A DNA stretch of 64,000 nucleotides from Mycolicibacterium neworleansense (lineage in GTDB: Bacteria > Actinomycetota > Actinomycetes > Mycobacteriales > Mycobacteriaceae). Of this stretch, positions 46,842 through 50,654 are shown in pieces. Every line of letters begins with the position of its first letter. The stretch's first letter is position 1. The stretch lies in contig NZ_CWKH01000001.1 of the NCBI RefSeq assembly GCF_001245615.1, positions 1,116,001 to 1,180,000 on the forward strand, given 5' to 3'. The notes under the pieces were generated by a model. That model worked only from the letters and a program-made list of their open reading frames with translations, did not search any database and was not told where the DNA came from. A program made the position numbers and the translations under genes.

Positions 46842-47531
46842 TCAACCCGCCGGCAGCATCCCCAGCAGTCCGAACATCATCACCATGCCCGGCAGCAGGT
46901 TGGTCACCTGGTGTGCGATGATGCCGCCCCACAAATTCTCGGAATACAGCCGGGCCAGCGCAATTGGGATTGCCACCACCAGTAGCAGCGGTGCGCGCGC
47001 AGGCTCCAGATGGGCCAGGGCGAACACCAGTGTGGACACCGTCACGGCGACGATCCGGCCCCAGCGCTGTTCGAGCGCTCCCCACAGGAGCCCGCGGTAC
47101 ACCACCTCTTCGCAGATCGGGCCGAGCACAGCCACCAGGAGCAGGACGGCCACCGCCACCGGCCAGACTGTCCGCACACCTTCGTAGACGCCACCCACGG
47201 CCGACGTCGCGTCCGGCCCGGCGATCGACTGGTAGAGCAACGCCGCGGGCAGGGTGACGAAGAGTCCGCCGATTCCGAAGGCCAGCCCGAGCCCGAAGGC
47301 GCGCCAGGACCAATGCCACCGAAAGTCGATGCGCGGACCGTTGCCCCGCCAGGTCGCGATCGCGATGGCCAGTGCCGCGGCCACCACGGTCGGCACTCCG
47401 ATCGCCAGGGTGATCAACCAGGCCGGCGGTGGGCCGGCGGGAGCAAATATGCCGAACGATGCCGAGGCGAGCAGATACACGGCCTCGACGATGACGAAGG
47501 CCCCGAGGCCCCAGCGGTGACGAGTGGTCAC
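46842..47531 (-). CDS. CPBP-family intramembrane metalloprotease
   Basis: The 229-residue protein has about six to eight helices and the CPBP/Abi motifs: EEVVYRG (EExxxR), FALAHLE (FxxxH) and HQVTN (HxxxN). These form the zinc site of CAAX-type proteases. Its start overlaps the upp stop by 4 bp, so it is the last gene of the URC operon. In bacteria the family serves in membrane-protein processing, immunity or transport; the target here is unknown. Confidence 0.88.
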
Positions 47532-48157
47532 TTGGTGCCGAAGATGCGGTCACCGGCGTCGCCGACACCGGGAACGATGTAGCCCTGCTCGTCGAGCTCC
47601 CGGTCCAGTGCCGCGGCGTAGATGGGCACCTCCGGGTGCGCCTGGTTCATCGCCTCGACACCTTCCGGACACGTCAGCAGGCAGACGAACTTGATGGACC
47701 GGGGCTGGTATTCCTTGATGCGGTCGATGGCCGCGACCGCCGAGTTGCCGGTGGCCAGCATCGGATCGACCACCACCACGTCGCGTTCATGCAGGTCGCT
47801 CGGGAGCTTGAAGTAATACTCCACTGCCACCCGGGTCTTGGGGTCGCGGTACAGGCCGATGTGGCCGACCCGGGCATTCGGCATCACGCTGAGCATGCCC
47901 TCCAGGATGCCGCTGCCGGCCCGCAGAATGGACACGAACACCAGTTTCTTGCCGTCGATCACGGCGCCGGTGGTTGACTCCAGCGGCGTCTCGATATCGA
48001 TGTCGTGGACCGGGATGTCACGCAGCACCTCGTAGCTCATCAGCATCGAGATCTCGTTGAGCAACTGACGAAAACCTTTGGTGGACAGGTCCTTCTGTCG
48101 CATCAGGGTCAGCTTGTGCTGTACCAGCGGATGGTCGATGATGTGCAGGTTGCCCAT
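47528..48157 (-). CDS. upp: Uracil phosphoribosyltransferase
   Basis: The 209-residue enzyme converts uracil and PRPP to UMP. It has the family pattern: HHPLVQ-type N-terminus ([16 protein letters not shown]), the [13 protein letters not shown] loop and the PRPP site [13 protein letters not shown], ending [16 protein letters not shown]. The gene starts 8 bp after the URC4 stop and overlaps the CPBP gene. In the yeast URC pathway, URC6 is a uracil phosphoribosyltransferase, so this enzyme may both salvage uracil and feed URC1/URC4. Confidence 0.95.
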
Positions 48158-48165
48158 GGCGCCTC

Positions 48166-49383
48166 CTAGAAGACCGTGCCGTCGCTGACGATGGACAACG
48201 GAGGGCGGCCGTCGCGCAGACGCGCGGCGAGCGCGCGCCCGGTCGCCCAGGTCCCACCCTCCAGTACGCAGGCCAGTGGCAGCTGCGGGGCCTTCAGATG
48301 ATCGCGGATCAGGGGGGCCAGCTCATCGAGCAGTGCCACGGTCAGCGCCCGCCATTCGACCACGAGCTCGTCGCCCACCGCCCAGTCCCGCTCGGCCAGT
48401 GTGAGATCGCGTAACCGCAGCGCGCCGGTATCCAGCAGCAGACCGCCGTTGCGATACTCGGGCAGCCCGGTCAGTCCATCGAGGTCGGTGACCGCGACGC
48501 CGGCCCACTCGAACGGCTCGAGGAGGGAGTAGGTCAGCCACTGAGACAGCTTGTGAAACGGCATCCACCCGTGCGACAGGCCGGGACCGGGAACTGCCCG
48601 GTGCCGCCAGCAGTCACCGAGCGGTTGACCACCGATGGCGTTGTCGGCGGGCCACACTCCCGACAGTGTGCCCAACAGTACGGAGAGCAGATCATGGGCG
48701 GCGATCGACGGACCGTTCACCGTGTCGAACAATCCGCCGGGGCGGCCGTGCGAGCCGAACACGTCCGGATGCGCGGCCAGGTGCGCGCCGAGTCGGTGCA
48801 GCAGCTCGACCCGGCCGGCCAGCCCCACCAACGGATTTCCGGGGTCCACCTGAAAGGCGCCGGCCAGTTTCTCGGCATCAAGGCAGCGCAACGCGTCCGC
48901 ATCGGCCCGCAGTGGATCGGCGGGATCGCTGGAGAACAAGCCGCTGCAGAAGGCGTGCCAGCTGGCCACCCCCAGGCCCTCCGATCGGGCCAGGCGCAGG
49001 CCGGTACCGGGTTCGGTGTAGTGCCATTCGGTCCCGGCGCCGGCGTCCAGCAACACGCTCACCACGGTCAGGTCGATCATCGACCGGGCCCGGTCTGCCG
49101 TAGTCACATCTGCGGTGCGCGTGCGTAACTCAGCTCGGCGATCCACACCGCCGGCCTCGAAATGCCGCCACCGGCTGTGGTAGGGGATGGCGAGGGTGGG
49201 GTAGCGGCCGCGCGTGACGTCGGCGACCTCAACGGCCGCATGACCCAGACCGTCGTCATCGACCAGGAACCAGGGCGAGTCGCCGTCCCGGGCGCGCTGC
49301 AGAAGATGTTGGGCGCGTTGGCGGATCGCGGAGGTGGTACGCAGGGCGGCGACGGCCGCCGAGCCGTCCGGGGCCGTGGTCAT
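48166..49383 (-). CDS. URC4-family protein (DUF1688), uracil catabolism
   Basis: The 405-residue protein aligns with the URC4/DUF1688 family: an N-terminal [17 protein letters not shown], the middle [19 protein letters not shown], the central [20 protein letters not shown] and the [16 protein letters not shown] segment. URC4 is needed, with URC1 and a phosphoribosyltransferase, for uracil degradation in yeast; its chemistry is not settled. The ATG at 49383 overlaps the URC1 stop by 4 bp, so the two are coupled. Confidence 0.88.
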
Positions 49384-50654
49384 GGGTTGAGTCCGCGGCC
49401 CTTGGCGATCTTGAGCTCGTCGGCACCCGGCACCGGTCCGGGGGTGAAGTAGCCGGCGGCCATCTTGGCGTCGATCTCGACCCGGGCGTCGGCGGGGATC
49501 AGATCGTCGGGGATGTTGACGCGCTCGCCGACCTCGATGCCGGAGCCGGTGATGGCGTCGTACTTCATGTTGCTCATCGACACCAGGCGGTGGATCTTGC
49601 GGATCCCCAGCCAGTGCAGGACGTCGGGCATGAGCTCCTGGAATCGCATGTCCTGTACGCCGGCAACGCATTCGGTGCGGGCGAAGTACTGATCTGCGGT
49701 GTCTCCGCCGTGCTGGCGCTTGCGAGCGTTGTAGACCAGGAACTTGGTCACCTCGCCCAGCGCCCGGCCTTCCTTGCGTGAATACGCGACCAGCCCGACC
49801 CCACCGCGCTGGGCGCCGGCGACGCATTCCTCGATGGCGTGCGTGAGATAGGGCCGGCACGTGCAGATGTCGGAGCCGAAGACGTCCGAGCCGTTGCATT
49901 CGTCGTGTACCCGCGCGGTCAGTTCCACGGTCGGATCGGCCAGATCGCGTGGTGCGCCGAAGATGTAGATGGTCTGCCCGCCGATCGGAGGCAGGAACAC
50001 CTCAAGATCCCCGCGGGTGACGAGTTCGGGGTACATGCCCCCGGTCTCCTCGAACAGCACCCGGCGCAGCGCGGTCTCGGTGCAGCTGAACCGGGCCGCT
50101 ACCCCGGGCAGGAACCACACCGGTTCGATGGCCGCCTTCGTCACCAGCGCCGCACCGTTTTCCAGGAGCACCCGGCCATCGGGATGCAGCCGGCCGGCGG
50201 CGATGGCCGTGGCGATCTCCGGCACCATCACGTGCGCCTTGGTCACGGCAATGGTCGGCCGGATGTCGTAGCCGGCCGCCAGTTCGGCGGTGAAGGCATC
50301 GGCGACCATCGCGCCCCAGGGGTCGAGGCTGACGATCGCCTCGGGCCGGCTCCACTGCGGGTACGGACCGATCACATCGGTAGGGGCAGTGTTGGTCAGA
50401 TCGGCGCGGTGAGCCGGTGAGAGTGCCCCGGCCGCGACAGCAAGTGCCCGGTACACGCTGTATGAGCCGCTGTGGGTGCCGATCACGTTGCGGTGCGCGC
50501 GGGTGGTGGTGGTCCCGATCACCGGGCCGCGCTCGGCGGCGCTCGGTGCGCCCCAACGGATCGTCGGGGTACCCGCGGCGGCGCTGTGGGAGGTCAACCG
50601 GATGTGCCGGGCCTTCGCCGGCTCCGCGGACGCACCCGGTGATTCGGCGACCAT
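49380..50654 (-). CDS. URC1-family GTP cyclohydrolase II-like protein, uracil catabolism
   Basis: The 424-residue protein has an N-terminal extension of about 190 residues and a GTP cyclohydrolase II-type domain after it. The zinc cysteines are kept (HDECNGSDVFGSDICTC), and YSRKEGRALGEV corresponds to the catalytic region. In fungi URC1 is this type and acts in uracil breakdown, not riboflavin synthesis. It starts the operon URC1-URC4-upp-CPBP. ATG 50654 has GGAAGGAG 8 nt upstream. The true substrate is thought to be a uridine derivative rather than GTP. Confidence 0.88.
   Translation of the reverse strand: MVAESPGASAEPAKARHIRLTSHSAAAGTPTIRWGAPSAAERGPVIGTTTTRAHRNVIGTHSGSYSVYRALAVAAGALSPAHRADLTNTAPTDVIGPYPQWSRPEAIVSLDPWGAMVADAFTAELAAGYDIRPTIAVTKAHVMVPEIATAIAAGRLHPDGRVLLENGAALVTKAAIEPVWFLPGVAARFSCTETALRRVLFEETGGMYPELVTRGDLEVFLPPIGGQTIYIFGAPRDLADPTVELTARVHDECNGSDVFGSDICTCRPYLTHAIEECVAGAQRGGVGLVAYSRKEGRALGEVTKFLVYNARKRQHGGDTADQYFARTECVAGVQDMRFQELMPDVLHWLGIRKIHRLVSMSNMKYDAITGSGIEVGERVNIPDDLIPADARVEIDAKMAAGYFTPGPVPGADELKIAKGRGLNP

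Follow-up and report, generated by a model that had tools for sequence, protein, structure and literature searches.

The closest described counterparts of the genes studied here are Lachancea kluyveri URC1, URC4 and URC6 and Schizosaccharomyces pombe urg1-urg3, which belong to the same three protein families as a gene set in a 64,000-nucleotide stretch of Mycolicibacterium neworleansense (RefSeq assembly GCF_001245615.1, contig NZ_CWKH01000001.1, positions 1,116,001 to 1,180,000; called 'the window', and numbered from its first letter). According to excerpts of the respective sources, the three families are clustered and uracil-induced in S. pombe (PMC2174524), the yeast Urc4 step is the conversion of ribosylurea to urea, and for L. 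kluyveri the reported urea-degrading enzyme is urea amidolyase (both PMC7530994); on the URC pathway, an excerpt of PMC12507026 cites Zhang et al. 2021 (ACS Catal 11:8895, UTP cyclohydrolase) and Andersen et al. 2008. The Rut and reductive (PydA/PreA) routes of uracil degradation serve the same purpose as URC with unrelated enzymes. Bacterial linkage of the URC1, URC4 and uracil phosphoribosyltransferase (UPRT) genes was reportedly already noted by Andersen et al. 2008, and the linkage described below is an instance of a pathway already known from yeast and bacteria. Unlike the yeast system, that of the window is a bacterial operon of overlapping genes in a genome with urease, as opposed to the urea amidolyase of L. 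kluyveri.

We consider it likely that the window carries a complete bacterial URC core operon, encoding a UPRT, the uridine triphosphate (UTP) cyclohydrolase URC1 and a Qng1-fold N-glycosidase, URC4, and followed in function by urease. All three genes lie on the minus strand: URC1 (424 amino acids, GTP cyclohydrolase II (GCHII) superfamily) at 49380-50654, with an ATG start at 50654 preceded by GGAGGAAGGAG and a TGA stop at 49382-49380; URC4 (405 amino acids, DUF1688, predicted Qng1-like N-glycosidase) at 48166-49383, with a TAG stop at 48168-48166; and upp of the URC type (209 amino acids, a dedicated UPRT placed by family scores and clade) at 47528-48157. The URC4 start and the URC1 stop overlap by 4 bp (as ATGA), and 8 bp separate URC4 from upp. 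An earlier reading of this DNA, made from the letters without database searches (the sequence-only reading), had placed the three genes in just this way and had called them a URC uracil-catabolism set in a mycobacterial operon, equivalent to the core of the yeast pathway; with family scores far over the cut-offs, a conserved gene order and the same three families in L. kluyveri and S. pombe, this description was borne out.

URC1 scored 793.8 bits against NCBIfam PRK07198 (cut-off 403), with Pfam GTP_CH_N and GTP_cyclohydro2 matched too. A phmmer search matched it to PDB chains 7ej3_A/7eev_A with an E-value of 1.5e-236 over residues 2-422; the entries, titled 'UTP cyclohydrolase' (7EJ3) and 'Structure of UTP cyclohydrolase' (7EEV), were 84% identical to it over 396 aligned columns, and no difference pointing to another activity was seen. 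The zinc-type cysteines C253, C264 and C266 (codons within 49857-49898, minus strand) match the cysteine pattern of GCHII from E. coli (2bz0) when aligned and are invariant in 35/35 aligned rows, as the earlier description of a GCHII-like protein with its zinc Cys kept rightly had it. Equally invariant are Y308, D335 and R337, which align with the catalytic Tyr, Asp and Arg residues of the E. coli enzyme. Judged by its full-length match and zinc-type cysteines, URC1 is a UTP cyclohydrolase orthologue, and because the 84%-identical solved relative bears that title, the ring-opening substrate is likely UTP rather than uridine monophosphate (UMP). The sequence-only reading had also called the chemistry of the pathway incomplete; with a relative solved and titled UTP cyclohydrolase this is out of date for URC1, and partly so for the pathway. 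An AlphaFold 2 model of URC1 built from the 35-row alignment was poor (pLDDT, the predicted local distance difference test score, 56.3), and was used only for reading PDB titles and identities. The public database name of URC1 is 'GTP cyclohydrolase II'. A role as the riboflavin enzyme of that name (RibA) was rejected, the ribA model TIGR00505 giving 47.5 bits, under its cut-off of 205.85, and a second, separate GCHII-type match being present in the same genome at C1:1569952.

The window Upp scored 266.6 bits against TIGR01091 (cut-off 208.35), and 249.7 bits in the UPRT family-model comparison against 216.5 for the canonical upp of its own genome, located at C1:2734289-2734891; a third PF14681 match is also present in this genome. 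The URC-linked copies, 72 in number, scored 234.6-258.4 bits, and the others at most 225.6 among the matches listed. In a tree of 94 proteins (78 URC-linked, 15 canonical and one other; bootstrap not settled), URC-linked and canonical UPRTs formed separate clades with support 100/100, the 15 canonical copies, taken from 8 genomes with the URC set (URC+) and 7 without it (URC-), being 38-41% identical to the window Upp. Among the matches listed, both types were found in at least 28 of the 72 URC+ genomes. Given the separate clade and the canonical gene elsewhere, the operon has its own UPRT of a separate, URC-linked lineage, beside a salvage-type gene. The window upp was accordingly rejected as the usual mycobacterial salvage gene, and the proposal that the usual salvage Upp supplies UMP for breakdown did not hold in that form. 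A URC-type UPRT is carried by 72/198 genomes in the genus sample, and in uracil-labelling or 5-fluorouracil work on such mycobacteria uracil uptake could not be taken to reflect salvage alone. A second URC-type upp was seen about 2.6 kb before URC1 in a Polaromonas bin (L051:3442-4068).

URC4 matched Pfam DUF1688 (PF07958) with 474.9 bits (cut-off 25), and its fold was found to be that of Qng1. Qng1 (DUF2419; 7U07, 7UK3, 7ULC, 7U91 and 7UGK), which acts in queuosine-5'-monophosphate salvage, is 15-20% identical to URC4. By both hhalign and a MAFFT alignment (7u07 numbering), K278 of URC4 (codon 48550-48552, minus strand) occupies the position of Qng1 Lys199, and E309 (codon 48457-48459, minus strand) that of Asp231, two residues that PDB mutant titles place in the active site of Qng1; K and E, respectively, were found in 112/112 rows of URC4 relatives. 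The hhalign match stops at URC4 residue 362, and E375-W379 (codons 48247-48261, minus strand) were set against Qng1 D298-W302 in the MAFFT alignment only, with E375 in 110/112 rows (Q in 2) and W379 in 112/112. Qng1 D298 and W302 are named as active-site residues in an excerpt of PMC11592518. In a nine-row MAFFT alignment of URC4 and Qng1-type proteins together, K278, Q281, T305, E343, R345, A346 and W379 were identical in 9/9 rows, and the E309 and E375 positions were acidic in all URC4 rows but one, which has Gln at the second. Pfam Q_salvage (PF10343) was matched at E up to 10 by 27 of the 112 URC4 relatives, the best at 7.1e-5.

In its build URC4 thus resembles enzymes that split a base from its sugar, and it is predicted to be an N-glycosidase of the Qng1/HhH-GPD type, a hint at how the final, urea-yielding step may proceed. 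We infer the URC4 reaction, its catalytic residues and the phosphorylation of its substrate; the 5'-phosphate is expected from the Qng1 parallel. Somewhat better than evenly balanced, in our estimate, is the fuller proposal that within the Qng1/HhH-GPD superfamily URC4 forms a new subfamily of nucleotide N-glycosidases, with 5-phosphoribosylurea as substrate, closing a carrier cycle of phosphoribosyl pyrophosphate (PRPP). If this is true, a fold of the DNA-glycosylase type has been put to catabolic use in the degradation of pyrimidines: uracil is loaded onto PRPP and dismantled while attached to the sugar phosphate, after which URC4 would set urea free and hand ribose-5-phosphate back for PRPP synthesis. 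The least understood enzyme of the pathway gains a fold, a superfamily and the catalytic candidates E309, K278, E375 and W379, and with fold and candidate residues named, its reaction becomes testable with one purified protein. No paper relating URC4 to Qng1 was found, although no search paired both names and subscription journals lay mostly outside the coverage. Several URC4 orthologues carry the database name 'uracil phosphoribosyltransferase', which, like 'GTP cyclohydrolase II' for URC1, is misleading and hides the pathway.

In the proposed sequence of reactions, the dedicated UPRT would convert uracil and PRPP to UMP, and general kinases would raise UMP to UTP. For URC1, whose reaction course and products we infer, the proposal is that this zinc enzyme of the GCHII fold would release pyrophosphate from UTP and open and cut the pyrimidine ring; the products would be a three-carbon fragment and (5-phospho)ribosylurea, in which the urea remains attached to the sugar. 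Using E309 and K278 as active-site residues, URC4 would then break the bond between C1' and N and so yield urea and ribose(-5-phosphate); urease would convert urea to ammonia, and ribose-5-phosphate could return to PRPP.

The spread of the set was followed in 198 genomes of the genus (this genome included) and 296 genomes across the phylum. DUF1688 was present in 72/198 genus genomes, this one included, so that the set is not peculiar to the strain, and in only 4/296 of the phylum-wide sample, 2 of these 4 being from this genus. URC1 (over cut-off), the high-scoring UPRT type and DUF1688 occurred in exactly the same 72 genomes; the three matches adjoin in 71 of them, and in the remaining one URC4 is split over two contigs, with URC1 on one and upp on the other. 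A total of 79 loci was assembled (72 from genome contigs, 4 from plasmid records and 3 from further genomes), of which 75 carry the complete trio in the same order on one strand, which argues that it is not a product of chance; in L049, L068, L070 and L073 one or two genes are missing and the match lies at the end of the available stretch. In a quick, midpoint-rooted tree of URC1 and URC4, 14 Pseudomonadota loci, mostly Comamonadaceae (L018, L021, L026, L034, L039, L040, L045, L051, L056, L058-L061 and L069), formed one clade among actinobacterial sequences, a nesting that points to gene transfer between phyla; 4 other Pseudomonadota rows branched outside this clade. Two genomes of another actinobacterial family (L079 and L080) have the same trio order; their URC4 is about 41% identical, and their UPRT has diverged strongly (28-29%).

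A strong urease alpha match (E <= 1e-40) was found in 72/72 URC+ against 68/126 URC- genomes (Fisher 7e-15, ignoring relatedness), an association uncorrected for relatedness or genome size. At this cut, which was our own, 140/198 genomes were counted, and at the curated cut-off 152/198, the 12 extra genomes being URC- ones with weak matches. Urease was also present in 6/6 betaproteobacterial genomes from which named URC loci came, a few being metagenome-assembled; two plasmid records, being single replicons rather than whole genomes, gave a weak match (27.3 bits) in one and none in the other. The M. neworleansense genome has urease, and RutA and PRK08318, which we take to be PreA, had no match over cut-off in it. 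Use of uracil as a nitrogen source would agree with the presence of urease in every URC+ genome and with the absence of above-cut-off hits for RutA and PreA; in the literature on uracil as a nitrogen source in mycobacteria, only E. coli RutR work turned up. For urea carboxylase, none of 18 matches in this genome was over cut-off; a match in this genome (L098, G000:C1:2379536-2381533) that covers part of the model (profile 445-1119) has one in-frame TGA.

Three other explanations were weighed, not all exclusive of the one preferred here. That upp is an ordinary salvage gene beside two unrelated genes, with URC1 a GCHII of the riboflavin type, is largely refuted and highly improbable: it would fit the database name of URC1 and the soundness of Upp as a UPRT, and it conflicts with the fully supported separation of the UPRT clades and the canonical upp elsewhere, with the far higher score of URC1 for PRK07198 than for ribA, with the second GCHII-type match and with the co-occurrence of the genes in the same 72 genomes. 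An unlikely but more serious alternative is that URC4 has the Qng1 fold and is no glycosidase, instead binding or regulating URC1 or catalysing some other hydrolysis. In its favour are the Glu at the position of Qng1 Asp231 and the invariant URC4 residues named below; the other points listed here count against the preferred explanation as a whole. The hhalign probability of the URC4-Qng1 match was 72%; searches of PDB sequences with URC4, singly or as a profile, found neither Qng1 nor any relative; the window URC4 did not match PF10343 at E up to 10, and three other URC4 members scored 22.7, 18.7 and 16.1 bits, under the cut-off of 25. Lys199 is kept, but Asp231 of Qng1 is Glu in URC4, and Asp298 is Glu or, rarely, Gln. 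URC4 further has extra conserved motifs relative to Qng1, and H69, R71, R73, H74, R311 and N312 are invariant in the 112 rows and not shared by the three Qng1-type rows; another substrate is expected, and the likeness of fold is one of relationship, not of substrate. On the other side stand the seven residues identical across both families, the acidic character of the E309 and E375 positions, save for the single Gln, and the placing of yeast Urc4 at the step from ribosylurea to urea in the excerpt of PMC7530994.

Rather unlikely also, and compatible with the enzymatic part of the proposed operon function, is that the same enzymes serve to trim or detoxify pools of pyrimidines, such as surplus UTP or uracil analogues, and not to supply nitrogen metabolism. 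As relatives of URC1 are titled UTP cyclohydrolase, a nucleotide pool would be consumed; the scan of genes flanking the operon in the window recognised no uracil transporter, which counts against uracil feeding; and a CPBP-type protease gene lies on the same strand with a 4-bp overlap. Pool trimming is at odds with a UPRT starting from free uracil in 75/75 complete trios, with urease in all 72 URC+ genomes, with the clustering and uracil induction of the S. pombe families (PMC2174524, as excerpted) and with the genes near the trio in many Pseudomonadota loci. The latter came from a survey of neighbours in 75 loci, for which genes were called with a program of our own and grouped by single linkage (among the 45 clusters listed, eight were annotated by one representative each). 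A cytosine-deaminase-like gene was found near the trio in 11/19 Pseudomonadota loci (representative 794.5 bits against PRK07572, cut-off 438) and a BMP/PnrA-type ATP-binding cassette (ABC) importer gene in 9/19, neighbours that fit the intake of cytosine, uracil or nucleosides. An NCS1-type permease is encoded on the opposite strand, no more than 8 kb from the trio, in 5 mycobacterial loci.

Downstream of upp, a CPBP/Rce1-like membrane protease gene (46842-47531, minus strand) shares 4 bp (GTGA) with the stop end of upp. It follows the trio in 9/75 surveyed loci, all 9 mycobacterial, and is probably a co-transcribed passenger of the transcript, outside the conserved core. Upstream of URC1, a divergent NYN-domain gene occupies 50735-51127. 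Generic promoter and terminator scans returned 0 and 0 sites. Between the two genes, at 50697-50706 (minus strand), lies a promoter-like element, GGTTGACTGG, of the -35 type, singled out by its recurrence in other loci. Among 76 upstream stretches of other loci (2 of them empty or of 1 base), GTTGACTGGA was found 42-75 bp before URC1 (-42 to -75) in 13, all mycobacterial; TATGCTGGCG recurred in 15 of the 76. An element of the GGTTGACTGG type is kept in L019 and L030 despite differing neighbouring sequence, and it is perhaps the -35 element of the operon promoter.

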